From positions 34,164,001 to 34,228,000 of the forward strand of contig OX485809.1 of the NCBI GenBank assembly GCA_950295325.1: 64,000 bases of DNA, written 5' to 3'. This DNA comes from Polytrichum commune (taxonomy: Eukaryota > Streptophyta > Polytrichopsida > Polytrichales > Polytrichaceae). The notes beneath the pieces were generated by a model. The model was not told the DNA's origin. It saw nothing but the letters and a program-made list of their open reading frames with translations, and did not search any database. The position numbers and the translations under genes were made by a program. Below, in pieces: positions 22,401 through 62,319 of this stretch. Positions within the stretch are counted from its first letter, which is position 1, and each line of letters starts with the position of its first letter.

Positions 22401-23519
22401 GCCCATTTCGCCACAGAACAACAACGTGATACGAGATATGTCACCCCCGCAACAACTATCCCACTGGCACATATTTCTATCAATGAATGCAACCCCGAAA
22501 GTGATATAGAAACCACCATCAATACTATCCAAACACACTTTGATGTTGCCCACATATACGAAGATAATGGAAGGCACCTCACCACTATCCCCAAAACTAG
22601 ACTACATTGGCTATGGCAACAATACCAACTCGCAAAAAACACCCCACATGGACTAGAACCACCCACACAACCATTTGAAACCGAAATAGTATGGTTATAC
22701 CAAAGATACAAATACCGTATTCCTAAAAATGACCCTCTAAAACTAGCCCAATACACAATACCTACCCCAATACTAAATTTTCTCATCACATCATTTAATA
22801 TCAGCCACTCATATTTTTCATCCCCAGTCACATGCCCCACACAACTCAATCAATTTTACTCCCCATTCTCACGAGATAAAATATTTGGCTCCTTAGGGAA
22901 AGCCTTCGACCATAAATGGAAGGGAATAGGCTATGCCCACCCCAATAATGCAACAGACCTACAACAGGCTATACATTGGGCCCGTCTTGCCGCCAAAAAC
23001 GACCCAAGTACCATCACCATACTCATCTCACCTGATACAAACTGGTACCAAAACTTCAATCCACACTCTGGTCCATTTCCACATACACATATTATTGCCC
23101 ACTTTGCTGCAGATACTATCACATATGAAGAACCTATTATACCACCTGAACTTAACATACCTAGGAAAGAACTCTCTACACTACAAATATTCTGCATACA
23201 CCATCAAAATAACTACATAGGAACCTATGAACAACTAAATCAACTCACCCATATTGTAAATAATCTTTCAATACCACAAGCATACATACAAATTGCCACA
23301 TATACCCCTCCGAATACCCCTGTCAACCCTAGCAAAAAGTGGTCCAAACTAACCTATCCCAACATCCTCACACTCAATGAAGCACCTATGCCTCAACCAC
23401 CCGAATACCAAACTAACTTTCCATTAAAATTCCATCCACAATTTAGTTATTACACTGACGGTTCATTTAAAAAACCCAAACTAATTGCCCCTGGAGTATG
23501 GAGAAGAGAAGCAGCATGA
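19401..23519 (+). pseudogene. LINE ORF2, segment 2: reverse transcriptase and start of RNase H
   Basis: In one frame apart from a TAA at 19911-19913. The reverse transcriptase has the finger motif NKAPGPDKIS, motif A YIDFKNAF, motif B IQGDTLSPYLF and motif C AAYADDLA, so the catalytic aspartates are intact. A long thumb/linker of about 700 residues follows. RNase H begins near 23445 with YYTDGS. A TGA at 23517-23519 stops the frame shortly after. Reading through both stops keeps the same frame, so they look like point nonsense mutations. Together with segments 1 and 3 it formed one polyprotein performing target-primed reverse transcription. Confidence 0.85.
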
Positions 23520-38795: not shown

Positions 38796-39106
38796 CATGT
38801 TTGTGTTCCATTCTATATATATCATCTAACATGGGCCTCCACTATCTTACCTTAATGGGAAGAAACTTAAAAAATTAGGAGGAAACTAACGCCGGAACAA
38901 ATAATGATTAACAAATAACAACATGAATAATGCCAATAGGAATATTAAGGATATAATGGATAATGTCAACATTTTCAATGATAGTTCTGCTATGAAGAGT
39001 AATTTCAAGGAGTAATACTAAGATGAACAATGGTTCTTGCGAATTGTACTAGGATGAATAATGATTCATGTGCATAGTGCCAAGAGTATAACTCCATCCA
39101 AATTTT

Positions 39107-40196
39107 GAAGTTCATCATGAATGTATGAATAAAAAATGAGTAATCCCATTTTTTTCGAGGGCCCATGGAATTCAATTGACATAGTCCAGGGTCATGGAAC
39201 CGACCCACGTGGTTGTATAATGTTGTGAGCTACGTGATTGAGTAACTTAAACATATTTGATTAGGTCAATGCCGCAATTGTGATTTCCGTGCAAGGCAGG
39301 TTGCCACAAGCTCTTAAATGTTTTGAAGTTCATCATGAATGTATGAATAATAAATGAATAATCCCGCTTTGTTTGGGGGACCATGGAATTCAATTCACAT
39401 AGTCCAAGGTCATGAAACCCACCCACATGGCTTAATAATGTTGTGAACTACGTGATTGAGTAACTTATACATATTTGATTAGGTCACCGCCGTAGTTGTG
39501 ATTGACATGCAAGGCGGCCTGCCACAAGCTTTTAAATGTTTTGAAGTTCATCATGAATGCATGAATAATAAATGAATAATCCCACTTTCTTTGGGGGGCC
39601 ATGGAATTCAATTCACATAGTCTAGGGTCATGGAATTGAGCCACATGGTTGAATAATGTTGTGAGCTACGTGATTGAGTAATTTATGCATATTTGATTAG
39701 ATCAACGCCGCAATTGTGATTACCGTGCAAGGCGGGCTGCCACAAGCTCTTAATTTTTTTGAAGTTCATCATGAATGTATGAATAATAAATGAATAATCC
39801 TACCTTGTTTGGGGGGCCGTGGAATTCAATTCACATAGTCTAGGGTCATGGAATTGACCCACATGCCTAAATAATGTTGTGAGCTACATGATTGAGTAAG
39901 TTATGCATATTTGATTAAATCAACGCCGCAATTGTGATTACCGTGCAAAGCGGGCTGCCACAAGCTCTTAATTTTTTTGAAGTTCATCATGAATGTATAA
40001 ATAATAAATGAATAATCCCACTTTGTTCGGAGACCCATGGAATTCAATTGACATGGTCCAGGGTCATGAAACCCACCCACCCACATGGCTTAATAATGTT
40101 GTGAATTACGTGATTGAGTAGTAACTTACACATAATTGATTAGGTCAATGACGCAATTGTGGATGCCGTGCGAGGGCCGCCACAAGCTCTTAAAAA
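39107..40196 (+). repeat. 218-bp satellite, five copies
   Basis: 'gaagttcatcatgaatg' recurs at 39107, 39325, 39543, 39761 and 39979, an exact 218-bp period. Each unit holds 'ccatggaattcaatt', 'gtgattgagtaa' and 'gccacaagctctta'. Copies differ by scattered substitutions. No coding sense; the open frames here repeat with the unit. Confidence 0.9.
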
Positions 40197-43874: not shown

Positions 43875-43886
43875 AGTATCGGTTGA

Positions 43887-43973
43887 GGGAAGCTATCTTA
43901 TGAGCGATGAGCAGTGAGCGGTGAGCGGTGAGCAGTAACACATGAGCAATGAGCAGTAACATATGAGCAATGA
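43887..43973 (+). repeat. Left terminal inverted repeat with GAGC-type iterations
   Basis: After GCTATCTTATGAGC the sequence repeats TGAGCRGTGAGC-like words about nine times. Such subterminal iterations commonly bind transposases; that role is inferred. Confidence 0.85.
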
Positions 43974-44059
43974 TTCCAAACTTAGTAAAGACACACGGGT
44001 TTAGGGTACACAACCAAAATTTTGACAAATTAATTGCATATTTTCAATTGTAAATTGCC

Positions 44060-44340
44060 AATATTTTAAATGAAGCACAAGTGAAAGGGCCCTATTTCCA
44101 TGGATCATTTAAAACACTTTCAATTCATTGTTGATTTTTATTATAATAATCCAAACCAATACATGTCATTTATTGACATCCTTATACATGTAGTTACAAC
44201 CAACACTTGCACAACTACTCACATTCCACAACACCAGCAAGTTCAAGTAGGTGCATAACCTCATTATACGTACATGTAGGTGCCATAATTGTGAGCCACT
44301 CAAACTGCTCACGGGTTGAATTAAGGCCCATAATCTACAA
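44060..44340 (-). pseudogene. Duplicated 3' end of the transposase gene
   Basis: This block resembles 44645-44860, the 3' end and downstream region of the transposase gene. It includes 'gatttttattataa.aatccaaacca', 'ccagcaagttcaagtag' and 'acatgtaggtgc' equivalents. It is a diverged, non-functional second copy of the gene's tail, lying between the left terminal repeat and the intact tail. Confidence 0.65.
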
Positions 44341-44389
44341 ATGAGAGGAAATTAGATATTAGAAATAGTCAATATGTAGGTAACTAATA

Positions 44390-44600
44390 GGTTTTGAGAC
44401 ATCCGCCTGTGGATGCGAGTTGTGTAAGAGACTGGTATTAGGTCTGTATCAACCCGGGTTCGAATCCGGTTGGTTACATTGACTGGTGCTATCCCAAATT
44501 GAGCTAGTGATAAAGTAGGAATAATCTATAGGCGGATACCAAGAAGACGTTACTACGCGGATGTACGTAGAATCTTCTCAATTATTTTTTATTTTTAGAA
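44390..44600 (+). mobile_element. tRNA-like / SINE candidate
   Basis: GGGTTCGAATCC at about 44456 is a perfect RNA polymerase III B box. An A-box-like 'tggatgcgagttgtg' lies about 45 bases upstream. The remainder does not fold as a normal tRNA, and the segment separates the two copies of the transposase tail. A SINE insertion is likely, but its ends are unresolved. Confidence 0.4.
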
Positions 44601-44769
44601 ACTTGTTATTATTTATCCATGTCAATCAATCAAACCGCTCACGGTTGGGTCGTACTGAATCATTTGAAATACTTCCAGCCCATTGCTGATTTTTATTATA
44701 AAAATCCAAACCAAAACATGTCATATTTTGACATTCAAATATATGGTACTTAATAGACCATTTGCAATA

Positions 44770-47700
44770 CTACTCACACTCTACGATACCAGCAAGTTCA
44801 AGTAGTCGCATGACCTCGTTATAGGTATATGTAGGTGCATGAATGAACTTATCACTCTCGTAATCCACCTTGCACAAAAATCTAAACACATAATAAAGAT
44901 GTTTACAATACACCCATTTTCCTTTCTTTCCCAATGCATGAGAGGACATTTTCGTGAAATCCGGACATAAGCAATGCGGGATGTCGCCAATTGTGACATG
45001 GTAGGTGATATCCTGCTTGGAGACAATGTTGATTATCACTCCAAAGCCCGGATATGGAATGGCAGTGACCCCAACCACATAGTAACCCTCCATGAGTCCG
45101 GCGCTCTCCCATTTGTTTTTGTGATCCGCTAGCGGTGCTGTTGGATTACGACGCACTGTCTTCCCAAACCTGAATGTAGGGTGGGCGTCCGGGTTTGGTG
45201 GCATAGAAAAATGCGAGCGAGGGATGGGAAGAGTTGCGATTGTTGAAAGCCTACGACGAGGGGACAATGCCTCCCTCTGCTGTAGTTGAAATCCAGCATC
45301 TTCAAGTGCCAAAACCTCCTCTCGCGATAGATTGGTACCTATCTTCACCGGCCACGTGTTGGGTACTGTAGGCCAGTCCAACACATATTTCTTCTTACTG
45401 CCACTCACACAACGTTTGATGTCGTCAGGGCAAAACCAAAATTCATACTCCACATTGTTGGGAGAGCGAAATTCCTTTCTGAGCCCTTTGTATGTTGGAG
45501 CAGGTGTGCCATGTTTCCCAGTCCCGACTTTGGCATTGCACATAGTCCCTGTGATGGCCTGCAGTGCCCAACATCGTTTGGCTGAGTTGGGTGGTAATCT
45601 TGCAATGTGCCAGTTGGAAGCAAGACAATCAGTCTCTAACACGGATGTAGTATGAGCCACACCATGAATTGCAGAACTTAACGATTCCTCTATGCGTTGA
45701 CGAGTTGCTCGGGTGTTCGGACGGGGAATGGAATAGTTCACTTTGTCGGGTCGATGAGAGTCACAATCAGCACCCGGTGGTAGGTTGAGTTTGCGTTTGG
45801 TGGAACCAAAGAGCTCTGATCCTTCCAATGCACAATCTCTAGTGTTGACGTCTTCTGCCCCTGGATAAGACTTCATGGCATCGGCCAACATTTTTGGATC
45901 TCCACACCTTGCAGCCGCTTTGAGTTTCAAGGATGTCGAATCAGGACCTTTACCATCAGACCCCCCTTTCAACCATGTCCGGTAATTTGCAATTTGCATG
46001 AAAGCACGGATCATGTCGTCCACTGTAGCTTCATATAAACAAGTCATGTTGCCGGACTGTTGGAGCCATTTGTTGTGTACAGTCTCTGCAAGGTTGCATG
46101 TTGGCATTTCCGCACGCTCTTCTATTGTCATATCCTATGAACAACACACAAATACAAGGATAAAACAAACATAAGATAGATTATATATTTAGGTTTGGGT
46201 CGTTCAACCCAAAATGGTTGCCATGTTTGGGTCGAACGACCCAAACTGCCTACAAGGTTTGGGTCGAACGACCTAAACTGTTTGCGTAGTTTGGGTTGTT
46301 CGACCCAAAATGGCTGCCACGTTTGGGTCGAACGACCCAAACTGCCTGCCACATTTGGGTCGTTCGACCCAAACTGCATACAAGGTTTGGGTCGAACGAC
46401 CCAAACTATTTGTTGTTTGTTGTGTACAGTCTCTGCAAGGTTGCATGTTGGCATTCCCGTACGCTCTTCTATTGTCATATCCTATGAACAATACAGAAAG
46501 ACAAAGATAAGAAAAACATAAGATATATTACATTGAATAATGAAGTTTGATATGTACTTACAAGTAGCATATGGCCATCCCATTGTCTGTAACGAAAGTG
46601 CCAAAATGCCAACCACTCTGAAAGGCCAAGGATGCCTTCCTCGGAGGCAGCTCCAGATGACAACCACCAAGAACGAATCACATGGTACTTGGTCTCAGCG
46701 TCGTCCATTGTTTTCGCGTCTTTGTAATCCTTGCATATTTGTTTGTGTTGAAATTGCAAGGATGGTTTGATATACTTTTGGGTCACCTTATCCAAGCTTG
46801 CGGACCAATGGAAAAGACATGTACGCTCACGTGCAACCATGGGTAGACTTGGATCACCATCCCCGTAAATCGCCCTCACCGCATTCCAATTAGCTTGAGC
46901 ACCATCAGCCATAAACCCTTTGAAGTTTACGTATGGTACACAATTTTCTGCCATGACAGCATTCAAATTTTCCCAAAAGAGAATTTGTGCTGCACCATCT
47001 TTAGATTGCATGTCACAACACGCAATAGTCAACACTTTACAATATCGACTGTCGTACACATGGCAAGCCATGGTCGTCCAGTCTTTCAAACGTTTGACAT
47101 GGTCAAACATAATCCATGAATTCTCCATATCCCCACCGACTTGCATCCTCTTCACAAGCTCCACACCACTACCTGGAAGGTCTACAGACATCTTGAAAAC
47201 AAACACTTTGTCCTTTGACTGCCCTGGGAACCGACTACCATGGACGAATTTGAAAGCAGAGTGGTTTTTGAGCGCCATAATACTATCCATAGTTCCCATT
47301 CCACTACGCAAAAAACGCTTTGATCCAGATACAAAGTTACGACAATTTGGAGAGGCAAGAGTGCTGAATTTGTCCATGACGACCTCTAGGAATGAACCAA
47401 CCAAGTGATGGCCTTCGACATTTGCGGGAGATTTGAGAAGGTAATCGGCCAAGAATTGTTTGCTCACCGCCATAACTATGGCTGAATTTTTTGCTGTGGG
47501 TGTTTTCAATACTTCATTTGCAATGCATTGGTATGCCATGTCCAATGATTCACGGCATGTGCCATTGGCCACAGGGTGATCATGTACACCAAGATGAATG
47601 CAAGCCCTGGACATTCCAACGGATGTGGAGTGGATGTATATGATTCGAGCATTACACAAAGCAATGCACACAGGTGTGGACCGACATACCTTACACTCGA

Positions 47701-48697
47701 CAGTGGACTTAGTAGGGGGAACAACACCCACAGCAAATGGGATAGGAGTTGAACCGGCCCATTCCGTGTTGTTCCGGAGGCCCCCATTGCGATTCATGTA
47801 ATCACAGTAGTCATTATGACATTGGAGATGACCAGCACAAGTAGAGCGCCGGAAGGACAGTCCAAAGTCATTTTGGATATTCGTGGTTTTGGTGGTGCAC
47901 CAAGGATGACCGTCGCACATTTTGTCCATGCCGTCCATTGAGCGACCATACGTACTTGGAGCTTTGAGTGCCACAGGATGCAAGAGAAACAAAACATCAC
48001 CATTAAAAGAAGATGGTAAGTACTTGACTTTACGAACATCTATACTGTCAAAATCAATGGATGCAAGATCGGACTTTGATCTTTTTCTTGACTTTGTCAG
48101 CTTCAAGGCATCAACCATAGTCAACCCTGTAGATGAAGGTGAAGGGTGTAGTGGAGGACGTTGAGAAGGTGAGATTTGGGGAACCACCTTGTTGTACATA
48201 AGACCGCAAGGGGATTTGGCTACATGTATAGGAAGTTGGGAAGGAGTAGAATGAACATTTCTAAATGGAAATGGCGATGTGTTTGAAAGATCAACAGATG
48301 CACAAATGTCGTCTTCTGAATCTGATAGCACAAACACACTATCATCAAGGGGTTCCACCTTAACAGGTGCGATAGAGGGAATTTGAACTGTGGATGTACC
48401 GGATTCGTTTGTCAAAATGACAGTTGAAACTTGCATCTGAGACTCAGAAAGTCCTATCACCCTAAATGAACCAGGTCCTAAGATCCACATAAAACCAACA
48501 TCAGTTCTATTTTTTGGAACCAAAATCGTTTCATACACCTCTCCATCTGCAGAGTACATCTCATGCTCTAAATACATGGTTCCTATCTGGAGGTTGAATC
48601 TCAAACTAAGTAAATCCTCTGAAACACTCACATGACCATCATCTTGGAGTGGCAAGATGAAGGGAACAAAAGATCCATGAGCTCTAATGGTAGCCAT
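44770..48697 (-). CDS. MULE-like DDE transposase with SWIM zinc finger
   Basis: Two exons fit on the minus strand. Exon 1 is 48697-46562 (712 codons), ending at a GTAAGT donor. Exon 2 is 46134-44770, entered at a TTCATAG acceptor. Together they give about 1166 residues. The N-terminus holds an acidic stretch, then KSRKRSKSD (nuclear-localisation-like). Residues about 261-375 form a Cys/His-rich zinc-binding region. The DDE core has Asp532 (IMFDHV), Asp598 (GFMADGAQ) and the CLFH motif at 627-630. The candidate third acid is in CNLAETVHNKW just after the exon junction. A SWIM finger (HCLCPDF...WVYCKHLYY) lies near 1095-1125. Both exons are open with no stop, so this copy could be functional. 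It should bind the terminal repeats and excise the element. A nearer acceptor at 46482 would instead splice into palindromic repeats and truncate the protein. Confidence 0.8.
46062..46187 (-). repeat. Intron-end/exon-start duplication, copy A
   Basis: About 120 bases, covering the polypyrimidine tract, the acceptor and the first ~22 codons of transposase exon 2, are duplicated at 46411-46530. Array A lies between the copies. This copy leads into the intact exon. Confidence 0.8.
46193..46408. repeat. Palindromic array A (7 units, ~32-bp period)
   Basis: Each unit is a 22-bp palindrome: arm GTTTGGGTCG, two central bases (AA or TT), and the arm's reverse complement. A ~10-base spacer follows. 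Seven units, some with one mismatch. It lies within the transposase transcription unit, between two copies of the same splice acceptor. Confidence 0.9.
46411..46530 (-). repeat. Intron-end/exon-start duplication, copy B
   Basis: Matches 46062-46187 with few differences. It includes a usable TTCATAG acceptor (46482), but its reading frame runs into array A and stops after about 116 codons. Confidence 0.8.
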
Positions 48698-49219
48698 AGA
48701 AAATCAAAAGAACATATGAACAACACATCACAAAAATATGGGGTGAATGTTGGTTTTGTATAGAGTTGTGTGAGGAAATGAATGGAAATGAAAACGTGTG
48801 ATACAATAATGGATGGAGATGAAAGCGTGTGATACATAGCATCTAATAATACAGAAGTGGACATAACACAATAATAGTCAGAGAATATTTACGAGCAAGA
48901 TATACACAAAATGGCGTCAAATACTAAAAGTATTGGTAGAAAACAAAAATATATATGTGTGGACTGACGTAGATGTAGAAAGAATTAAAATTGGTTGGAA
49001 AAATAAATTATTGCTCATTATCAATAGAACAAAGTAGGTGTCAGAAAATTTTGGCGGATATAACAAAAATAAACACATAATGACAAACGCGTCGAAATAT
49101 CTCGCTCATTGAACGCCAATTACAACATGTGATCGTAATATACGCCGGATTTTGTGAGATAGATACATTGGAAGAATAAATGATAGTACCTGATAGAAAA
49201 CATATCATAGACACCAACG
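48698..49219. promoter_or_regulatory. Divergent promoter region of the transposon
   Basis: These 522 bases separate the start codons of the transposase (minus) and the methyltransferase-like gene (plus), so both promoters must lie here unless the internal one at about 51987 is used. AT-rich; no single strong TATA box was assigned. Shared control of the two genes is likely from the layout. Confidence 0.5.
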
Positions 49220-52200
49220 ATGGTGGACGATGTAGAGAGAACACCTGTGAGGCCGAAGAGAAGACGTAGGAAAGCTTTGTATTTCACTTCCGAGAAAAAG
49301 AGGTTCAGACTGAGTGTGGGAAAGAAGAATGCAAATAAGGAAGGGAAAAAAAACTTGTTGAGTACGGTAGAAGAAATTATGAAGACACTGGATTTTGATG
49401 CGATGGAGGATGATGAAGGTGCAAAGAGCAAAGAAGATATAGATGATCGTATATCAGAGTCCGAATTGAAGACGGGTTCAAAGAAGACGACAAACAAAAA
49501 GGTAAGTCAGTTCAACGTTCACATAATTTGATAGTGCATAAGTTGTAAGTTAGGACGGAGAACCTTGTACGTTCACTCACATATCATGTAGTAGCAATTT
49601 ATAGAAGTTATAAATTGGAGAGGAAAAAACCTATACGTTAATGCACATGGTATATAACAGAAATTTAGGAAGGCTAGAAGTCAGGAGGAGAACATTCAGG
49701 GTTTATAAGAGCAACTTAGGAGACAAGAAGTTTGGAGGTAAAACCCTATACGTTAACGCACAAGGTTTATAAGAGCAACTTAGGGAGGCCAAAAGTTGGG
49801 AGCTAAAACCCTGTGCGTTAACGCAGAACATTTGTAATAGCAACTTAGGAAGGCCAAAAGTTGGGAGGAGAAACCCTGTGTGTTAATGCACAGGGTTTGT
49901 AAGAGCAACTTAGGAGGCAAAAAATTGGGAGGAAAAACCATGTACGTTAACGCACAGGGTTTGTAAGAGCAACTTAGGAGGCAAAAAATTGGGAGGAGAA
50001 ACCCTCTGCGTTAACGCACAGGGTTTGCAAGAGCAACTTAGGAGGCAAAAAGTTGGGAGGAGAAACCCTCTGCGTTAACGCACAAGATTTGCAAGAACAA
50101 CTTAGGAGGCAAAAAGTTGGGAGGAGAAACCCTCTGCGTTAACGCACAAGATTTGCAAGAGCAACTTAGGAGGCAAAAAGTTGGGAGGAGAAACCCTGTG
50201 CGTTAACGCACAGGGTTTGCAAGACCAACTTAGGAGGCAAAAAGTTGGGAGGAGAAACCCTGTGCGTTAACGCACAGGGTTTGCAAGACCAACTTAGGAG
50301 GCAAAAAGTTGGGAGGAGAAACCCTGTGCGTTAACGCACAGGGTTTGCAAGACCAACTTAGGAGGCAAAAAGTTGGGAGGAGAAACCATGTGCGTTAACG
50401 CACAGGGTTTGCAAGACCAACTTAGGAGGCAAAAAATTGGGAGGAGAAACCCTCTGCGTTAACGCACAGGGTTTGCAAGAGCAACTTAGGAGGCAAAAAG
50501 TTGGGAGGAGAAACCCTCTGCGTTAACGCACAAGATTTGCAAGAACAACTTAGGAGGCAAAAAGTTGGGAGGAGAAACCCTCTGCGTTAACGCACAAGAT
50601 TTGCAAGAGCAACTTAGGAGGCAAAAAGTTGGGAGGAGAAACCCTGTGCGTTAACGCACAGGGTTTGCAAGACCAACTTAGGAGGCAAAAAGTTGGGAGG
50701 AGAAACCCTGTGCGTTAACGCACAGGGTTTGCAAGACCAACTTAGGAGGCAAAAAATTGGGAGGAGAAACCCTGTGCGTTAACGCACAGGGTTTGCAAGA
50801 GCAACTTAGGAGGCAAAAAATTGGGAGGAGAAACCCTCTGCGTTAACGCACAGGGTTTGCAAGAGCAACTTAGGAGGCAAAAAGTTGGGAGGAGAAACCC
50901 TCTGCGTTAACGCACAAGATTTGCAAGAACAACTTAGGAGGCAAAAAGTTGGGAGGAGAAACCCTCTGCGTTAACGCACAAGATTTGCAAGAGCAACTTA
51001 GGAGGCAAAAAGTTGGGAGGAGAAACCCTGTGCGTTAACGCACAGGGTTTGCAAGACCAACTTAGGAGGCAAAAAGTTGGGAGGAGAAACCCTGTGCGTT
51101 AACGCACAGGGTTTGCAAGACCAACTTAGGAGGCAAAAAGTTGGGAGGAGAAACCCTGTGCGTTAACGCACAGGGTTTGCAAGACCAACTTAGGAGGCAA
51201 AAAGTTGGGAGGAGAAACCATGTGCGTTAACGCACAGGGTTTGCAAGACCAACTTAGGAGGCAAAAAGTTGGGAGGAGAAACCCTGTGTATTAACGCACA
51301 GGGTTTGTAAGAGCAACTTAGGAAGGCCAAAAGTTGGGAGGTAAAACGACTAGGAGAGCCTAAAAGTAAACAAATATTTATTGTATGAATTTAAATCGAT
51401 CTTCAGAGCGTCGGAACAAAAAAACCATTCAAAACGGCGTTAGAATGCAAGAAATGAGAAATATGTCTACTCAAGTATTCATGCAATACGTTATGGGAGA
51501 TAGAAAATGACACAAAATAGCATAATTTTTTTTTTACCCCGAAACCCAAAATCTACGAGGTCGCCCAAAACAAGGAAATAGATAGAAGAATGAGAAAAGA
51601 AAATGATTTCAAACCAAAACAAAATATAAGAAGATTTTGTAGCTACGGAGATTTAGATAATATAGCATATTTTTTATTTATTTTTTGGACCCCATTAGCA
51701 TTTTTTCCAGATTTTACAAGTTTTGGCAAATCTACCAATTCCAGACAAATTCAAGTCTCGGCCCTGTGCGATTAACGCACAGGCCTTATGCGCTAACGCA
51801 CAGTGGCCTCAAAGTTGCCAGCGCAGACCCTGTGCGTTAACGCACGGGGTCTACTTGCCTAGCTAAAGGCTTCACAAAGTTGGGCAAGTAGACCCTGTGC
51901 GTTAACGCACAGGGTCTGCGCTGGCAACTTTCTAGCGGCTATGCGGGGCACGAAGAGCCACGCTAAATATGGCCGCAGGGACGAGTAGTATAAATTGCCA
52001 CACCTTCAAAGCATTCAGTCTTTTTTCTCTCATCTATCGGACCGGAGCTCGTCGCTGCAAGCTCTCTCATCTACAGGTGCAGTACAAGGTTTGTTTGTAC
52101 TTTCGTGATGACTGGGTAATTGCGCATAATTAGGCGTAAATTACGGGCAGTTTGGGTCGGTCGACCCAAACTGTCTGCCTGGTTTGGGTCGCTCGACCCA

Positions 52201-55200
52201 AACTGTCGACCTAGTTTGGGTCGAGCAACCCAAACTGTCGGCCTAGTTTGGGTCGAGCGACCCAAACTGTCGGCCTAGTTTGGGTCGAGCGACCCAAACT
52301 GTCGGCCTAGTTTAGGGTCGGTCGACCCAAACTGTCCGTCTAGTTTGGGTCGGTCGACCCAAACTGTCCGTCTAGTTTAGGGTCGGTCGACCCAAACTGT
52401 CCGTCTAGTTTGGGTCGGTCGACCCAAACTGTCCGTCTAGTTTAGGGTCGGTCGACTCAAACTGTCCGTCTAGTTTGGGTCGGTCGACCCAAACTGTCCG
52501 TCTAGTTTAGGGTCGGTCGACCCAAACTGTCCGTCTAGTTTGGGTCGGTCGACCCAAACTGTCCGTCTAGTTTTAGGTCGGTCGACCCAAACTGTCCGTC
52601 TAGTTTTAGGTCGGTCGACCCAAACTGTCCGTCTAGTTTGGGTCGCTCGACCCAAACTGTGAGCATGGTTTGGGTCGTTCGACCCAAACTGGCTGTAGGC
52701 GGTTTGGGTCGCTCGATCGAAACCGCGTGGACAGTTTGGGTCATTCGACCCAAACCTCGCGCCCAACTTTTGTAGACGTGTAGTTGGACACACAGACCCT
52801 GTGCGTTAACGCACAGGGTCTGCCCTTGTAGTTTTGGGGTGAGCGGCCACCCTTATCGTATAATATTTAAAGGTGCAAATGGTAGTGTCTAGAATCATTT
52901 TTGTTATTCTTCCTTGTGTTCGTGGTATTCTGTTGTTATTGTTGTTGCTATTGCTGTTGTTTTTGTAATGTTATTGCTAATGTGTTTCTACTGGTTTTGA
53001 AATATTTATGAAACTTATTTCATTTGTTTTAGGACCAATCAATGGATTTGGAGAGAACGACTGTTATTTCTACTGGTGATGATTCTACAATGCATTCAAT
53101 TCAAGATCGTCCATCTCAACAAGTTCATGTTCATCAGGACATATCGTCAAATCTTCATAATAAGAAAAAGAAAAAAAATAAATGAATCTCTCGATGATTT
53201 TGACTCGGATGAAGATAATGATGGTGACAATAAAACCTATCAACAGAAAGTCTGGGAGCTTACGGACAAGCGAAAGGTTAATTCCACTTCAACAATTTCT
53301 TCAATCCGTGCTGGACCGAAATCTCGTTTGCGTGTACCTTTATGTCGCATGGTTCCAATGCCTATTGTGCGTCCTGCTTTGAGAGGCGACATCACTAAAT
53401 TGGAGGCTGACTTTTTCAATGGTTTTCGTGATGGTGACCGTGTGTTTTATCTATCGGCTACCGACTCTAAGGGAAATTTTCAATTTGTAGATGACGAGGT
53501 TCATGCATCTTGGAGCCCAAATTGGGCTCAAGTTAATGCGGTGTTTGAAACTGAGTTAAATGCCGATCCTTCATTTACATCATACAAAAACAAGATGTTC
53601 TTCATATGGGATGGTAATCACAGATTTTTTGCTTGGAAAAGTTATATTGACCGCTTGCATACCGAAGATTACGAGCGTCATGTCGTTGTGGATTCCATCA
53701 TTTTGGCGCCCGAGCTTGATGACATTCCAAGTTTGTTGACTGCTATGCACGACATCAACAAGTAATGTTTTTACTTCTTTATTTTCATTTATTTCTGGTT
53801 TGTATTTTGTTATTTGAATTATATCATCCTAAATCCATGAATTCAATATTTTTTCAGGTCAACAGAAAACTCTCACGTTTCTACTAATTTGGTGCATACT
53901 TTGTATCGGATGCAAAGTATTGGCACCATGCCTTTGACTTCTTTTAAAAAACAACTGGATCCTAGAAGTTATAAGCGATGTGAGGAGAAGTCCGTTGAAA
54001 CTTGGTATTCTTTGACGCGGCCAATTTTTCTTGATTATATGTACAGTGTAAGTTTTTCTAGCATTTCCTACTATGTTTTTAATGTTTATTTATCTTTCAT
54101 TTAGATCACATCTATATGTACTTATTAATTTTGGATTTTTTTTTATTTTTCAGCAAGAACTTGCCGAGGCTAGCGATATTGCTCTCAACCTTTACAATGA
54201 AACCCATCCTCTTGAACGAACTTCAGAAGGAGTTTCTAAAGCAATGTCCGCAGCTGTCAACAAAAAACGTGCAATGTTGTCTTCTAGTTTTACAAAACAA
54301 CTAGCAATTGCTGACATCAACCTCACCCCTGCTTTTCTTGAAGAAATTAAGCACCATTGGGGTTCATTTTCGGTGCCTGAAATGTTACAAGAGAAACTTC
54401 ATCGTGTTGCTGTTAGTAATGTGGATCCAAATGTCAAAGTCGGATGGCTCAAGCTTTGGAATGGCAATAGATTTGACAAAGATGCATTGCATTTCCCGAA
54501 ATCACCCCTCTCTGATTCTGCACTTGATGATTGGTTATCAAAGGCTACATATTGGGCACAGTTAGAGAAAAAAGCTATTGAAGAGCTTCAAAGTATTCTT
54601 TCATCTCCTCTTCAATTGCCTGCAGATGTGCCTACTCTCTCCGAATATATCCAAACCTGGAAGTTTGCGGCTTTCAATTCAATATTCTATCGTGAATTCA
54701 AAAGCGGAAAAGTAAAAAAACACAACGTTTGGGATGAGCAACCGAATATTGATCTTGCTATGAAGCGTGTTCTATACAGGTACAACTTATTCTTTACTAT
54801 TTCTTGATATTTTTTCCTTACATTTTACTTTTCATTCAATATTTGGCTCATAATATTTTTGTGTGTAGGTATTTCCGATATGTTTTGATTCCGCACAAAT
54901 GCGTTATAGGAGAACCTCGTTTTTTTCCAAATTGGCGTGACACTGGTGCGGAAGACTCATGCATGTTCACTACTGAGATTTGTTTGGATTGGTCGCTCCC
55001 ACACTATGAGGATTGTGGTTGGTATCTTGATTGTCCTAAGGATGCATGTCCGTCAAGTGAGAAGACAATCCGTCAGATAAATGATGCCAAAAATGTAGAT
55101 CCTCGTGATACTGCAATTTTGCAAGCACAAATTGTGCAGCTTAAACTTAGAGAGCCAGAACCAAAAGAGACAAAACGTCGTAAGAGAAAACATGTTCCTG

Positions 55201-56859
55201 AAACCAAAATATAAGGTCAATCGGAAATTTCACAACATGAAGAATTGCTTGTTCTTTCCAATGATTTGGATAAGAATACACTTGGAGGCGAAAGTTCAAA
55301 ATCCGGGTGCGATGTATTGGAATTTCATTACTCTAGCACCTATGACGCTATTCATCGTGCGCCAACGAATGTTTTGAGAAAAGAGTTATTCATACTGAAG
55401 AACTTTCTTACGCTCTCTTTTGCTCGATCTACTGCTGTCAAGAACAAGTCTGAAGGGGTTGAAGTAAGCCCTCCTGAGTGGATCCAATGGCGGGCATTTC
55501 TTGAAAATGTAAGTAATCTTCATTTTGTATTTTCTGTAATGTTCTTACTTTCATTTGGATTTTATTTTGTGTCTTATATTGTGATATGTTGTGGTATTTC
55601 AGTTAAAAGACAATCGCGAATTTCATGTCATGGGAAGTCCGACTCCATTTGCCGTTGACTTGGTTTTTCTGCAATTTCCGGACGGTTTTGACTTCAACCT
55701 CTCCAATAGACCTGCTGAAATTCCTCTTTGGAATAAATATGACAAGAACTGGATGGTTGCAACAATGTCCTTGTGCAAGTCCATCTTGTCTGATGATGGC
55801 ATCCTCATAGTATTTTCTGCTATCGATATGCAAACCAAGAAGGTTTTGAATTCAACCTTACACAACGGCAACATGAAAGTTCTTAGGACTTTTATTTGCC
55901 TCAATTCGTACATGGTGTTCAAGGATCCGGAGTCTCCAACCTACACCGTAAGTATAACACATCACAATTGTTTCTATTTAATTATTTTGGTGTTATTTGC
56001 ATTGTATATAGTTTTAACACAATTTACATTTTTTTTGTAGACTCCGGCATTTATGGCTCATGTCTTGGTAAGGGATTTTACTACCAAAAAATCCACGAGA
56101 CAACCAAACTCCACTTTTTTCGGCACTGGATTGAAAAGCAAAAACTTGCTTTTCAATTTTGTGGATGAAAAAAACACGCTTCTTCAAAAATCGGGAAGAC
56201 CTTGGAGGGGGCCATATCAAAAATCGCCGCGTTTTTTTCAAGATCTTATTGAATTGTTTACACCATCGAATGGACGCGTTGTTGATTTGACATGTTCCAC
56301 TGGAGCTTCTATCCTAGCAACACGCGCATGTGGCAGACATCTTCTTGCATTTGAGGGTGATAATGACATGTTTGAGCACATATTGAAACCGCTTTTGGAA
56401 AAGGTTTTCAAAGAGGGGTCATCTAAGGAGAATATACAAGATCTCACAAAAGAAGATGATGACCTCTCGGATGAGGAGATGCTTGAATTTGAGTGTGAGT
56501 AAGTTTTGATACAATAAATTTTTATTCAATTCATTCGTTTCATTCAATTCATTGGTTCATTTTTATTTCTTCACATTATTTACATGTTTCATCGATTTGA
56601 TTTCAGGAATACGATTGGAAAGAGGACATGTCTCCCGTTTTGGGCACATAGACAATTCCTACGAAGTCCAAGTCGTAGCCCGCGTCTCCCATCATATGCC
56701 GAGAATGTTGCAATTGCAATGTTGAATCTCGAAGATTCGGATCCAAATGAAGAATCTTGCTATAGTTCCAAAATCAATTCGCAATGCAAAGGTGCTCGAA
56801 TATATATAGATGACGAGGCAAAAGATAGTTTCATGTCTAGTGCTACTACTTATGAATAA
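49220..56859 (+). CDS. ParB-like / DNA-methyltransferase-like protein of the transposon
   Basis: Eight exons fit consensus splice sites and frame: 49220-49501, 53033-53761, 53858-54047, 54154-54779, 54869-55508, 55603-55947, 56041-56498, 56607-56859, about 1173 residues. The N-terminus is basic (RPKRRRRK), then acidic. Around residue 285, FFIWDGNHRFFAW resembles the DGxHR motif of ParB/sulfiredoxin-like domains. The middle is helical with an RKRKH stretch. Residues about 841-900 (AVDLVFLQFPDG... LSDDGILIVFSA) and about 1000-1040 (FFQDLIELFTPSNGRVVDLTCSTGASILATRACGRHLL, shortened here: key part VVDLTCSTGAS) follow the order of beta-class N4/N6 DNA methyltransferases (motif IV, then X/I). DPPY reads QFPD, so activity is doubtful. 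Defects: one extra base in an A run at 53164-53180 and a TAA at 55212. The first exon is joined across 3.5 kb by inference; an alternative start is ATG 53042. Confidence 0.55.
49550..51350. repeat. Palindromic array B (64-bp period, about 27 units)
   Basis: Each 64-bp unit centres on a 22-bp palindrome, arm CCCTGTGCGTT plus its reverse complement, with GTTAAC at the centre. A spacer 'gcaagaccaacttaggaggc' and 'aaaaagttgggaggaga' follow. Unit centres lie at 50009, 50073, 50137, 50201 and so on, exactly 64 apart, to 51289. Outer units are more diverged. Variants (CTCTG, CATGTG, CAAGATT) recur in a fixed order. It lies inside the predicted first intron of the methyltransferase-like gene. Confidence 0.95.
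51760..51925. repeat. Isolated palindromes of the array-B type
   Basis: Three or four copies of the CCCTGTGCG-type palindrome occur outside the array with different spacers ('ggtctacttgcc', 'gtctgcgctggcaac'). One is mutated to GATTAACGC. The last two spacers are themselves inverted copies of each other, so a larger foldback spans 51815-51930. Confidence 0.8.
51950..52080 (+). promoter_or_regulatory. Possible internal promoter and 5' leader
   Basis: TATAAAT at about 51989 is followed 30-40 bases on by a CT-rich leader (cagtcttttttctctcatct) and a possible donor 'ctacag|gtgcag'. This would give a transcript entering at ATG 53042 without the 49220 exon. Inferred only. Confidence 0.3.
52148..52765. 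repeat. Palindromic array C (~32-bp period, about 19 units)
   Basis: Same palindrome as array A (arm GTTTGGGTCG) but with central GT, CT or AG, and spacer mostly 'tgtccgtcta' or 'tgtcggccta'. Many units alternate GTTTGGGTCGG with GTTTAGGGTCGG, giving a ~65-bp dimer. It is still within the predicted first intron of the plus-strand gene. Confidence 0.95.
52795..52822. repeat. Single array-B-type palindrome
   Basis: A perfect copy of the CCCTGTGCGTT palindrome extended by AGA/TCT on its flanks, just after array C. Confidence 0.85.
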
Positions 56860-56987
56860 ATTTTTGGACTTCATGTTGTTTATCCTTCTCAACCCTCTTA
56901 TTACTAAACCCTAAAATCATCATTTTTAAGGCCACAATTCCACGGTTATAGGATATTGGTGGCCCTATTACCAAAATTTTCATCTTC

Positions 56988-57056
56988 CTCACTGCTCATA
57001 AGTTACCGCTCATCGCTCACCGCTCATTGCTCACCGCTCATAAGATAGCACTCCCC
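56988..57056 (-). repeat. Right terminal inverted repeat
   Basis: The reverse complement begins GGGGAGTGCTATCTTATGAGC and continues with TGAGCRRTGAGC words, mirroring the left end. Confidence 0.85.
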
Positions 57057-57068
57057 AGTATCGGTTGA

Positions 57069-58005
57069 TGAATCGTATGAGGCTCATTTAGTAATCCTTA
57101 TGGAAAATTTGTATATACCCCCTACTTTGCATGTTCTTTGGCTCCTCCGCGGTGAAAACCAATCAATTCAATGACTTTTTGTCCATAACCTTGTCTTTGA
57201 ATTAGATGTTTGAATTAATTTTCTTTGAAGTCCCTAAGACATGAACTTTTATTTTCCATTTCCATTTTACTTGATTATTGTACACAAAAGTATAAGAAAA
57301 TGCAACCAAAAATATTACTCTAAGCCGCATGTATAGCAACTTGTTTGCTTCTAGCTTCAAAGGAACTCTATAGTGCATCATTTGTGATAAGAATCAATAA
57401 TGCAATGAGTATTAAAATCAACATGTATGGCTTATTGTTTGAGTTGTTTAAGGTAATCTTTGCATTATGTGCTTGCAAAATACTTGAGTCATGTAACTTC
57501 ACCATGGTAGATGAAAGTATTTAAGTTTCTTGTGTCTTAATACCATGTTTTATCGCTTGTATGTGGAGGTTGCCTATGTTACTTTGTAGATTTCCTATGT
57601 TAGTCATTATTAATGATTAGTGATGAATACAATGAATTTTTGAATTGCATGGGGACCCCCACAAAAATATTTTCCCAAGCAATATAAATGAGCTTACGTT
57701 GGGGGAATTAGAAAGAAAGGAGATTCAATTATGAGCATAATTAGACGAGGAGAACAAATGAAACGTGCTCTTTTAAAGGTTTTTTTTTTGTTGGCGTACT
57801 GTCCATGTCTTTGAAATTTCAGGGCTTCACCTAGTAGATCAAGAATTCTCAATGAGAATGAATTTTACGACTTTGATTTACAGAGGTGTTTAAAACTTTT
57901 TGTTTGTACTAAGTGAAATTGGCAGTGTGGGTTTTGTGTGTGTTTACAAAAGTCATAGAATGAAATGTTGGCAAACTTGATGTAAAATGTAGGTTTTATT
58001 CCGTC
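57069..58005. other. Spacer between the transposon and the receptor gene
   Basis: AT-rich. It probably contains the promoter and leader of the receptor gene. An 'aaaatgtag' acceptor-like site at about 57993 precedes ATG 58006, so a non-coding first exon is possible. No other gene seen. Confidence 0.4.
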
Positions 58006-61000
58006 ATGGCTATCGAGCTTCAACGATTATTGGTGAAGCAACTGTCAATGCTTTGGCGGTTCATCATCACTTGCTTCGCATACTTCTTGACACTTGTTCA
58101 CAAAGAGACACTGCATCGATGTGAGTTTTCGGAATTTTTGCAATGGAAAGAGGAAGAAATGATCAAAATGCAAACTATTCTCCGACGAGATGATCTTTTG
58201 AATAAACGACAATGCACAAGTCTTGTCACCAAGCTTTCTACAACCATGCATAGTATTATTGAGATGATCACATCCATCAAGCAATCCTATGAAGTTAGGA
58301 TGGTGGTGATGGAGTTACATCGTATCATACAAAAAGGGGGAGCATTGGTGAATGAACTTGGTAGTGGAGATTGGTGTTGTGCAGCTCTTTTCCAATTAAA
58401 CAACAAAGAGGCCTTTCGGGAGCTCTTGTTTGATTTGGGGTGTTGTTGGGAGGCAGTGCACGAGATATACTTGACAAACCATCCAAGTCCACAAAACTAC
58501 ACAATGTGTACAGATTTGAATGTGGCTACTTTGAAGGAAGTTGAAGGCGATGAACAAGACTTGCTAAACAAACTTGAAAATGCTCTTGAGGACTCCAAAG
58601 AACACAACTTAGCAAAGCATTTGTGGAAGAGATTGAAATGTGACTTGCAACAAGTGAAAGGCGGAGAATTGGATGCTTTGGAAATACCTAAAGACTTTCC
58701 AAAACCCACACTTGTGAAATTAGTGGGTGCAGGTGCTTTCGGATCAGTTTACGAATCAAAATGGTTGGGATTACCAAGTGCAACAAAAATGTTGGAGGTT
58801 CCAGAGGATTATTATGTTTTTCACAAAGAAGTTGGAATCTTGTCAGGTTTGAGCCACCCAAACCTCATCAAATATTTTTGTTGGGGAATAGACGAAGAAC
58901 ATAACGAGTTGTACTTGGTGATGGAGTTGATGGACATGAGTTTGACAAAAATGTTGGAGAAGCTCAATAAGACACTCTTACCATATGTTGTTGCAATCGA
59001 TGTTATGCTTCAAATTGGAAGTGGCATGTGGTATCTTCACGACATGCATGTTGCCCATCTTCACTTAAAGCCAGATAATGTGCTCTTAAGCTCCATGACC
59101 ATTGATGGAGCAAAAGGATACAAATCCTTACCATTATAATGTCAAATTGATCAATTATGGCACTTCTAAAATGGAAGTTCAAAGCAAACCGCAAAAACAA
59201 AAACATGAATTTACTGTTGGTACACCAAGGTATATGGCACCTGAGCAAAGGGAAATAAACCTTGCTCGCATGGCATGTCCTTTCCAAGCGGATGTATGGT
59301 CTTTTGCTATGACATGTTCAAAGATCCTTTCACGGAAGGTACCGTTTCATCACACACATGATATGAAAGAAATTTTGTTAAAAATAAAGAAGGGTGAAAG
59401 GCCAGAGCTACCTATCAATTGTGGGGAGCTTACCAAATTGATCGAGGAATGTTGGAGGGAGGATCCTTTACAAAGGCCGACGTTCTCAGATATTTGCAAG
59501 AGACTTCTAGGCTTGAAGAAAATGTTCATGAAGGGAACATATTTGAGTGATATGGTTCCACAATTTGATGGAGCTAGGAATCTTTTTCAAAAGATGTCAA
59601 CAATGTTGAAAGGTTGCAAAGAAGAAACGAATCACGGTATTGAGAAGGTAAATGCCACTTTCATTACAATGCGCTCACTATTCAAGTTATTCTCAATTTA
59701 TTTATTGCTTTGATACATTATTGTGGATGTTTGAAGTTGAACATGCATTTTAGGTGGTAAGGTATATTAGTGTTTATTGACATATTTGTGTGTTGTACAT
59801 ATAGGTGTTTGATGGGACAATACTGAACGATCCAACAGTGGTTAGTCTCGAAAACAACCTTGCAAGAGTGAAATATCATCTCAAAGAAGTGAATACCTTG
59901 GGTATTGTTGGTATGGGTGGAATAGGGAAGACCACATTGGCGAAGGCCATATTTGATGATGTGAAGTCCACATATGATGCGTCATGTTTTGTGGGGCAGT
60001 TAAAAAGTAGGAGTTCACTTGATATTCTACGTGAAATTTTATCAAAATTTGGCATGGACAAAGAAGCCGAGGATTTAGTGCATGCGCCTCAGGCATGCGC
60101 ACAAATTGATGGAAGAATTGTTGGACAAAAAGAAAGTCCTTTTGATCTTGGACGATGTTAAGGATGAAGCTCAAGTGGATGACATTATACCAACGGTCAT
60201 CTTAGATCGGAGCAAGGGTACCACACTTATTATAACAACTCGTGATTGGGGTGCGATTAGAAATCGTGTGGGGGCGAGTGGTACAAGATATGATGTGAGC
60301 AAGTTAGATGATGATGCAGCAAAAACTCTCTTCAACATTCATTCTTCTTGGGAAGCATCTCATTTATCACCACAATTCAATGATATACGTGACATAATTG
60401 TGGAAGCTTGCAAGGGCTTGCCTTTGAGTTTGAAGGTCATGGGGGCATACTTACGTGGAAAGGAAAAATTGCGAAGTTGGGAACGTGCATTGCAAAGGAT
60501 GCAAAGGGGAAGAAATTTGGACGGGGAGGATGATAAGATATGGAATACCTTGAGAGTAAGCTTCGATGATGGTTTAACTCAAGAAGAAGAAAAAAATGTT
60601 TTTGGACATAGCTTGCTTCTTCGGTAGAGACATGCATCCTAGTGGCATGTCAAAAGAAAGAGCCCTACGTGTATGGACCGATAACAACATCCCTCCAATT
60701 TCCGCATTGGAGAATTTGGTCCATCGAGCATTGGTTACCGTAGAAATTGATGGTGGCGGTGATGAAATTTTGCAAATGCACGACCAATTGCGTGCCATGG
60801 GACAAACGATTGCTGAGAAAGAGTATGTGGGCACTCGAATTTGGAACACAAATGGACTTACAAATTGCTCGGTATTTTACTAACATTGTCTACATTAAGA
60901 CATTCCCTTGTGTATTATAATTGCAAATGATTTCTTAAAACTTTTGGCTTGATGGAAAACCTTCAATTTAGAATGACATTTTGCATGGATATTTGGTAAA

Positions 61001-62319
61001 TTTTTAGCATGTCATAGATGTTTAGCACAAACTCATGTCATGTACTAGTACTTCAAAAAATTTAGACAAGCACAATATGCTAATACTTTCATATATTCTT
61101 AAAACAGGATGTGGGAAAACTTCAAGGTTGTTCTTACTTTGGCAATGGAATAAGCCACAACCTATCTAAGGTTCGACTAATTCAAGATGGTGGTCTGAGG
61201 TATCTTCGCCTATTGAGTTTTCATAGCGAAGACAAGGAGATTTCACATGTCATCAACAACATAGAGCGCATTTGTTCACTTGTTGCACATGCTTTGAGCT
61301 TAAAATATTTTATGATAGACTTGAAACCATTAAATTGGGGTGAGATGAGGTTGCAGACTTGGGATGACATGAGTTTGGAGACTTGTGGAAATCTATTAAC
61401 AAATGCACATCTTTGGAAATCATTTGTAAAATTACAAGTATTGCAATTGCAAGGATGTTCATTCTTGAATCTAATACCCAAGGAAATGTTTTCAATCACC
61501 ACTCTAATTGAAATAGATCTAAAAGGTTGTTCAAATTTGACAACAATACAAGAAGGATTGGGGAACTTGAGTTCTTTAACAACCCTTCATTTGAGAAGGT
61601 GTACGAGCTTGACAACGTTACCGGAGGGATTGGGGAACTTGAGTTCTTTGACAACCCTTGATTTGAGTTATTGTCAGAGCTTGACAACGTTACCGGAGGG
61701 ATTGGGAAACTTTAGTTCTTTGACAACCCTTGATTTGAGTTATTGTCAGAGCTTGACAACAATACCGGAGGGATTGGGGAACTTGATTTCTTTGTCAACT
61801 CTTCATTTGAGAGAGTGTACGAGCTTGACAACAATACCGGAGGGATTGGGAAACTTGAGTTCTTTGACAACCCTTGATTTGAGTTATTGTCAGAGCTTGA
61901 CAACAATACCGGAGGGATTGGAGAACTTGATTTCTTTGACAACTCTTCATTTGAGAGAGTGTACGAGCTTGACAACAATACCGGAGGGATTGGGAAACTT
62001 GAGTTCTTTGACAACCCTAGATTTGGGCAAGTGTGAGAGCTTGACAATGATACCGGAGGAATTGGGAAACTTGACTCCTTTGACAACTCTAGATTTGGAA
62101 TTGTGTACGAGCTTGACAACGCTACCGGAGGGATTGGGGAACTTGAGTTCTTTGACAACCCTTAATTTGACATCGTGTAGGAGCTTGACAACGCTACCGG
62201 AGGGATTGGGGAACTTGAGTTCTTTGGTAACCCTTGATTTGAAAATGTGTTTAAGCTTGACAACAATACCGGAGGAATTGGGGAACTTAAGTTCTTTGAC
62301 AACCCTAGATTTGAGATAG
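58006..62319 (+). pseudogene. Kinase-like / NB-ARC / LRR receptor (PNL type), frameshifted
   Basis: Exons: 58006-59647, 59805-60871 and 61108-62319, joined at GT-AG sites in frame. Residues 1-225 are helical. A protein-kinase-like domain starts at the glycine loop GAGAFGSVY (241-249), with Lys261 and Glu275. Its catalytic loop reads HLHLKPDN (HRD lost) and INYG replaces DFG; GTPRYMAPE is intact, so it is a pseudokinase. NB-ARC follows with GMGGIGKTT, VLLILDDV, TLIITTRDW, GLPLSLKVMG, a FLDIACFF block and QMHDQ (MHD), then about 14 LRRs of 24 residues. In mosses such kinase-NBS-LRR proteins are putative intracellular immune receptors. Frameshifts lie near 59130, 60075-60085 and 60588-60596. The last is in an A run and could be an assembly error; the first two look mutational. 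Confidence 0.8.
61520..62319 (+). repeat. 72-bp LRR-coding tandem repeat
   Basis: Each 72-base unit encodes one 24-residue LRR (LTTLPEGLGNLSSLTTLDLS then x-C-x-S). Units are nearly identical at the DNA level, synonymous sites included. This implies recent expansion or gene conversion. Confidence 0.9.

Follow-up and report, generated by a model that had tools for sequence, protein, structure and literature searches.

A transposon of Mutator-like build carries two divergent genes

The 64,000-nucleotide stretch analyzed here (the window) spans positions 34,164,001 to 34,228,000 of contig OX485809.1 of the moss Polytrichum commune and harbors a DNA transposon in which a transposase gene is accompanied by a gene for a protein with ParB-like and methyltransferase (MTase)-like domains. 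What is said below on domains, element, gene conservation, and palindrome arrays was computed in this analysis, with genome searches run on the same 408-Mb assembly. The transposon (13,172 bp; 43885 to 57056) ends in inverted repeats and has the identical 10-bp sequence AGTATCGGTT on either side, forming the left (43875 to 43884) and right (57057 to 57066) copies of the target-site duplication (TSD). Its left terminal inverted repeat (TIR; 43885 to 43953, plus strand) contains degenerate TGAGC subrepeats and shares a 62-bp inverted match of 89% identity with the right TIR (56988 to 57056, minus strand). The right terminus, ...GATAGCACTCCCC, is identical in all 12 copies of the window type that were fetched, the flank beyond it being unrelated each time. 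Mutator-like elements (MULEs) are characterized by long TIRs and TSDs of 8 to 11 bp, and the long TIRs and 10-bp TSD of this transposon fit that description; the element is a DNA transposon of Mutator-like build, with the superfamily assigned from TIRs and TSD alone. An earlier reading of this DNA from its letters only (the sequence-only reading) had placed the companion gene in a nuclear transposon, as these boundaries and the common right terminus bear out.

The two genes inside the element are divergent, with the transposase on the minus strand and the ParB-MTase-like companion on the plus strand. The transposase gene (44770 to 48703) comprises two large open reading frames (ORFs; 48703 to 46475 and 46134 to 44770) and is classed as MULE-like from the element termini. 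DDE-like and SWIM-like stretches in these frames were recognized by eye alone; a Pfam search of the window returned no match for the transposase, which was also not among the matches to the Pfam MULE model (PF10551) from the 150 of 271 candidates scored. Transposase relatives, some of them with stops in their frames, lie upstream of companion genes of the L009, L022, L026, and L027 types (four of the seven upstream stretches fetched). The 3′ end region of the window transposase is duplicated 555 bp apart (44101 to 44838), and a tRNA-B-box-like sequence, GGTTCGAATCC, between the duplicates is possibly a short interspersed element insertion.

The companion gene (49220 to 56859, plus strand) runs from an ATG at 49220 to a stop at 56857 to 56859 and is predicted from its sequence to be spliced from eight exons, with GT-AG borders and matching phases, into a product of ∼1,170 amino acids (aa). 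Exon 1 (49220 to 49501) encodes a basic and acidic N terminus, and exon 2 (53033 to 53761) encodes the ParB/Srx-like domain. Exon 3 (53858 to 54047) features a conserved T-E-x-x-H-V-x-x-N and no recognized domain; a profile search of the PDB returned nothing under an E value of 0.7 and so showed no helix-turn-helix (HTH); exon 4 (54154 to 54779), which was not searched likewise, is a middle region conserved among copies and subfamilies and has no Pfam match. The conserved region between the two domains appears to be without recognized relatives. Exon 5 (54869 to 55508) precedes the MTase-like exons 6 (55603 to 55947) and 7 (56041 to 56498), and exon 8 (56607 to 56859), compared among copies, carries the stop. 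The window copy is damaged at two places: the frame of exon 2 breaks within a run of A near 53165, and exon 5 has an in-frame TAA at 55212 to 55214; the window itself therefore encodes no single continuous product. The TAA position is a sense codon in 11 of the 12 window-type copies, L019 having the identical stop, and L016, L017, and L018 are open throughout exons 2 to 8.

The companion gene belongs to a large family with a conserved exon order

In the 12 window-type copies (L010 to L021), whose fetched stretches lie beyond exon 1, exons 2 to 8 follow each other in the same order (12/12), mostly at ∼78 to 100% identity, which argues that the gene structure is not due to chance. Frame breaks interrupt some exons of these copies, and identity is lower in exons 2a and 5 of L021. 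The exons of the sequence-only reading hold in that all eight join in phase and exons 2 to 8 keep their order, with the reservation of the frame break and stop in the window copy. Protein searches of the genome returned at least 154 matches to exon 2, at least 151 to exon 7, and at least 150 to a divergent exon 2, all of them lower bounds from ∼150 scored candidates out of more than 1,300 in each search. At eight further subfamily loci (L022 to L029), the detected exons occur in unchanged order at ∼22 to 62% identity. Exon 3 was undetected in L026, L027, and L029, and exon 7 in L028, with L029 showing exons 2 to 4 only; additional introns split exon 4 and, in several of these loci, also exon 7. 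Ratios of nonsynonymous to synonymous substitution (dN/dS) among 10 to 12 window-type copies, the window included, were 0.19, 0.10, 0.20, and 0.16 for exons 2, 3, 4, and 5a, respectively.

Pattern searches extended to other organisms. Among viral contigs there were 12 matches and no relative among them, and among genome contigs 88 matches with one relative, L063 (CADCWO010000058.1), in which exons 2, 4, 5, 6, and 7 were matched. This relative is filed under an uncultured cyanobacterium; its gene is interrupted and intron-like, and the contig is therefore probably mis-binned eukaryotic DNA. A bacterial origin deduced from L063 was not adopted for that reason.

These results bear on whether the gene is a recently captured phage or bacterial gene, carried passively and without function for the element. 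Phages often have ParB fused with an N6_N4 MTase domain, according to the accessible text of PMC12704722, and the broken window copy would fit a passenger. Yet the intron-bearing exon order is retained across subfamilies that are only ∼22 to 62% identical, dN/dS stays at 0.1 to 0.2 in exons 2 to 5a, each of the three exon searches gave at least 150 matches, and the phage matches were weak (best E value 8e-4, with one L027-type MTase sequence as the query), all of which make passive carriage very improbable. As to origin, the sequence-only reading had offered a captured bacterial or phage gene or an ancient eukaryotic cargo. The latter fits better, and recent capture less well, because of the largely common, intron-bearing exon order at such low identity, the interrupted relative L063, and the weakness of the phage matches.

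Exon 2 is predicted to adopt a ParB/Srx-like fold

The DGxHR-like motif that had been noticed in the spliced product, FFIWDGNHRFFAW, is indeed encoded in exon 2 on the plus strand (ORF 53001 to 53765), where it had been placed. An AlphaFold2 model of exon 2 built on a 33-row alignment reached a pLDDT of 80.2 and a pTM of 0.74 and shows extra helices ahead of the GxHR motif. In a Foldseek comparison with the PDB, this model gave 60 matches at E values up to 10, with Noc, sulfiredoxin (Srx), ParB, and PadC filling the first 25 rows (best E value, 4.5e-3). VIA-align yielded Z scores of 7.8 for Noc (94 to 101 residues) and 7.7 for ParB, and of the 31 rows that it returned, 29 bear names of proteins with the ParB/Srx fold, counting SerK and SbnI. 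The G, H, and R of GxHR, the last being the arginine of the phosphate motif, are invariant in the 33 rows of exon 2. Searches of Pfam and PHROGs with single ParB exons gave nothing usable. The identification of exon 2 as a ParB/Srx (ParB-CTPase)-like fold is nevertheless well supported, since the structural rows agree with one another and with the invariant G-x-H-R; Z scores below 8 would be weak by themselves. It rests on predicted fold and motif, because no ParB turned up when the PDB was searched with a sequence profile of this exon.

Exons 6 and 7 encode an MTase-like domain with a degenerate motif IV

A 35-row profile built from exons 6 and 7 matched the adenine MTase M1.HpyAVI in the PDB (5hek/5hfj; E values, 1.7e-6 and 1.8e-6), the best match spanning the motif I region. 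Weaker matches were CcrM (0.018) and a 4mC MTase (0.6), and two unrelated rows, mt-SAF13 (0.055) and SpaR (2.4), were also listed. With the structural model of this domain, Foldseek ranked CcrM (3.7e-5), M.BceJIV (5e-5), MTA1, M1.HpyAVI, and MboIIA first, with METTL3 also among the fold matches, and VIA gave Z scores of 10.1 for MboIIA and 9.6 for CcrM. One exon-7 sequence matched DNA methyltransferases in PHROG (1.3e-5 and 2.1e-5), and single sequences reached N6_N4_Mtase in Pfam only below the cutoff (E value, 0.05). By profile and predicted fold, exons 6 and 7 are thus well supported as a beta-class N6/N4 amino-methyltransferase-like domain. The checks that the sequence-only reading had proposed gave, on the side of structure, matches of the exon 2 model to the ParB/Srx fold and of the MTase model to CcrM and MboIIA, and, on the side of profiles, the N6/N4 MTase and not the ParB.

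The possibility that the resemblance is fortuitous and neither domain real might draw on Pfam, which returned no ParB and left N6_N4_Mtase under threshold. With independent profile and fold evidence, we consider this hardly tenable.

The motifs follow the beta-class order that had been noted, with IV in exon 6 before I in exon 7, motif IV being degenerate. The window reads DLVFLQFPDG in exon 6; PWRG and a lysine, followed by motif I (VVDLTCSTGASILATRACGRHLLAFEGD), lie in exon 7. A catalytic [DNS]PP[YFW] (DPPY-type) motif IV occurs in none of 18 exon-6 rows, which have D-x-[PS]-[ED] in other subfamilies (DLIIADLPEG-type); rows of the window clade read QFPD or QCPD. Catalysis is doubtful because of this absence, and S-adenosylmethionine (SAM) binding by the retained motif I region is possible. 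The same counts weigh on the suggestion that the protein marks element DNA, which as marking by methylation is not supported. In its fuller form, this alternative has the ParB-like part target an active DNA MTase to the element, where N6-methyladenine or N4-methylcytosine would be written for protection or self-recognition. The beta-class fold and the retained motif I speak for such an enzyme, as does the suggestion by the authors of the Ectocarpus transposon paper that proteins like that of the algal Sola1 element bind to, and modify, the transposon that encodes them (accessible text of PMC12477816). Against this, the 18 rows offer D-x-[PS]-[ED], QFPD, or QCPD in place of the catalytic motif, and an active MTase seems quite improbable.

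Palindrome arrays often differ between subfamilies

Repeat and palindrome scans uncovered three arrays in the window element: one of the TTTGGGTCG-NN-CGACCCAAA palindrome between the two transposase frames (46191 to 46412) and two in intron 1 of the companion gene, with a 64-bp unit repeated 25.7 times, part of the units containing the CTGTGCGTTAACGCACAG palindrome (49697 to 51341), and with a 32-bp unit again containing TTTGGGTCG-NN-CGACCCAAA (52149 to 52755). The palindromes share a plan of half-site, CG-N2/4-CG, and half-site over 18 to 24 bp, and the 25 CG-centered palindromes of the element all lie outside the modeled exons. Other subfamilies have other half-sites, namely GTGTCTCG-N4-CGAGACAC in L005, L006, and L008, GCATCTCG-N4-CGAGATGC in L055 (upstream of L009), AGGCCTCG-N4-CGAGGCCT in L024 and L060, ATCCCACG-N4-CGTGGGAT in L026 and L061, and CCCTCTCG-N4-CGAGAGGG in L028. 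By one fixed criterion, 6 of 12 subfamily samples contain three or more CG-centered palindromes of a recurrent kind, the half-sites differing among them. As controls, 50,808 bp of window flank contained no CG-centered palindrome (six of any kind), and 1.08 Mb of shuffled sequence contained no CG-centered one. The evidence lies in the number of different motifs and not of sites, since tandem duplication multiplies site counts. The window, L004, L005, L006, and L028 have arrays between exons; in L055, L060, and L061 the arrays precede exon 2, in sequence with unresolved introns. L060 (G000:C1:47959300-47966300) also has a second palindrome, CCCACGGGTGAACACCCGTGGG, without the central CG pair, among 40 copies of AGGCCTCGGATCCGAGGCCT.

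The genome contains 9,731 exact sites of TTTGGGTCG-NN-CGACCCAAA, 502 of CTGTGCGTTAACGCACAG, and 1,903 of a third motif, and none of any of the reversed controls. Among the 50 places listed of the 502, all on contig C1, nine of 10 clusters of CTGTGCGTTAACGCACAG are situated 5′ of a window-type exon 2, within ∼5 kb. Within both 32-bp arrays, there is less variation in the half-sites than at the two central bases and in parts of the spacer.

No exon 2 was listed for three large TTTGGGTCG clusters of contig C1. Of these, L062 (G000:C1:617400-627200) belongs to an abundant element family (at least 150 matches, 20 at full score) and contains 21 palindromes of the TTTGGGTCG type (TTTGGGTCGnnCGACCCAAA) before and between its open frames, some within one frame. 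By eye, its proteins look ParB/MTase-like (FWLIDGQHSVEA and GDCIFNVFGGS); the profiles of the window family gave no significant match to them, and kinship of L062 with the ParB-MTase family is a lead only. One palindrome hence does not mean one protein, and the TTTGGGTCG palindrome either serves two proteins or has been borrowed. A NIF-like phosphatase ORF is found at the end of the L062 stretch.

The arrays could alternatively be bound by the transposase or by a protein of the host. On that account, they are sites of such factors or repeats that form hairpins, and the role of the ParB-MTase protein lies elsewhere, e.g., with the transposase as its partner or regulator. The location of arrays between frames of both element genes and the recurrence of one palindrome in the unrelated-looking L062 element are as this account expects. 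It accommodates less readily that the arrays are often subfamily specific, that central bases vary in several motifs, as they do in sites of dimeric DNA-binding proteins, and that ParB family proteins are known palindrome binders. We regard this explanation as possible, if on balance unlikely.

A tentative model: recognition of the element and protection from silencing

The reading that we favor, at somewhat short of even confidence, is that the companion product is a sequence-specific element-recognition and anti-silencing factor, analogous to the VANC proteins of Arabidopsis, that binds its own palindromes. We infer binding by the ParB-MTase-like protein, as a dimer or sliding clamp, and opposition to silencing as follows. 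A dimer would recognize the palindromes of its own element family, with a variable outer half-site followed by CG-N2/4-CG, which would be arrayed as targets in noncoding parts of the element and above all in introns. Loading might resemble that of bacterial ParB at parS, with the protein forming a nucleoside triphosphate (NTP)-controlled clamp, and its occupancy would keep the element expressed against host silencing. The degenerate MTase-like domain keeps a SAM-pocket-like motif I, having lost the catalytic DPPY-type motif. The proposal of the sequence-only reading that the protein recognizes element DNA gains support from the subfamily-specific arrays.

Several observations weigh against this model. 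At the level of the gene, the window's own copy is broken, and dN/dS climbs toward the 3′ side (0.44, 0.35, 0.61, and 0.62 for exons 5b, 6, 7, and 8), the last values being rough because synonymous change is also lower there. As for the domains, the exon 2 model has no Foldseek match at E values up to 0.001, its structural matches to ParB all stay under a Z score of 8, its sequence profile missed ParB, and the MTase model is weak (pLDDT, 53.1; pTM, 0.59; an in-frame intron was retained). Regarding the arrays, a CG-centered palindrome is single in two of the 12 samples (L004 and L027), and four (L022, L023, L025, and L029) have no perfect one; the samples L004, L005/6/8, L028, and L029 lack the part further upstream, and with a relaxed criterion (shorter or one-off half-sites) L004 has six and the L025 type five. 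Only two or three of five clusters of the 1,903-site motif, among the 50 places listed, are near a listed exon 2; the palindrome columns of the 64-bp array are no more constant than the remainder; and the TTTGGGTCG palindrome is common to L062, whose proteins are not detectably related by profile.

A more far-reaching version of the model, unlikely in its complete form, would have a ParB-parS-like system in a eukaryotic transposon lineage. The dead MTase would be a DNA-reading or SAM-sensing module, and the protein, after loading at subfamily palindromes in introns, would spread over the element in the manner of an NTP-gated clamp and protect it against silencing. With site and protein diversifying in step, one genome would come to contain many mutually exclusive anti-silencing systems, some parasitized by unrelated elements with the same sites, such as L062.

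To our knowledge, there are few systems, VANC among them, for which it is understood in detail how transposons evade silencing in a sequence-specific way. If the proteins bind the adjoining palindromes, each subfamily is a ready protein-site pair; the evolution of DNA-recognition specificity and anti-silencing would become directly testable in a plant, ParB-type clamps would be seen to act in the chromatin of eukaryotes, and the transposon proteins of the ParB-MTase kind would be extended from algae to land plants.

Other features of the window

A 218-bp tandem repeat is present in five copies at 39103 to 40194. Kinase, NB-ARC, and LRR frames stand in a row at 57964 to 62319, ∼0.9 kb from the element, as in a gene of the PK-NBS-LRR (PNL) type, a class described as moss specific in the accessible text of PMC3352924. 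At 17030 to 23519, an ORF pair resembles a non-long-terminal-repeat (non-LTR) retrotransposon, with an RVT_1 match (E value, 1.1e-29) and a weak Exo_endo_phos match under the cutoff (8e-5). The second ORF ends in a C-terminal PCIF1_WW (PF12237) match over the cutoff (8.6e-9); PCIF1 is a cap-methyltransferase family.

Comparison with known systems

A transposon protein that combines ParB and N4/N6-MTase domains is of a kind already known from algae, which tempers the impression of the sequence-only reading that this pair would be unusual in a plant transposon. The accessible text of PMC12477816 describes a ParB-like and N4/N6 DNA-MTase accessory protein of 1104 aa in Sola1-1_Ec32 of Ectocarpus, encoded on the strand opposite to the transposase, and cites green and red algal transposon cases. 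It is the only description of such proteins that we found in the open-licence literature, where we also found no report of palindrome arrays accompanying them, no search having been aimed at palindromes. Like the algal proteins, the moss product has both domains in one DNA-transposon protein encoded opposite to the transposase, a likeness by description. Relative to that description, the moss element differs in its Mutator-like structure, degenerate motif IV, and palindrome arrays.

With bacterial ParB and Noc, the moss protein shares the predicted fold, the phosphate-motif region, and palindromic candidate sites, the ParB fold loading at parS in the accessible text of PMC12704722. It has extra helices before the motif, HTH and dimer domains were not recognized in it, and no ParA was seen among the two genes of the element. 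The motif is GERR in the bacterial proteins and Srx-like [DE]GxHR here, and bacterial parS is palindromic. Similarly, it resembles the beta-class MTases CcrM, M1.HpyAVI, MboIIA, and M.BceJIV in the order of motifs IV and I, the fold, and the motif I region, but lacks the catalytic DPPY-type motif.

A similar layout is found with VANC of the Arabidopsis VANDAL elements, which are MULEs. In both cases, a Mutator-type element has a companion gene and motif arrays in its own noncoding parts, introns included, that differ between families, the likeness being one of layout. According to the accessible text of PMC5735166, VANC target motifs are short (8 to 9 bases), tandemly repeated, present also in introns of the transposon's own genes, and family specific, and the VANC6 motif occurs in the unrelated AT9TSD1, which VANC6 affects, just as the TTTGGGTCG palindrome occurs in L062. 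In contrast to those motifs, the moss palindromes measure 18 to 24 bp, and the moss element has clear TIRs, whereas those of VANDAL elements are absent or short (accessible text of PMC6446971). New here are the moss, i.e., land-plant, host, the wide diversification, an active site decayed across the rows examined, and palindromes specific to subfamilies.

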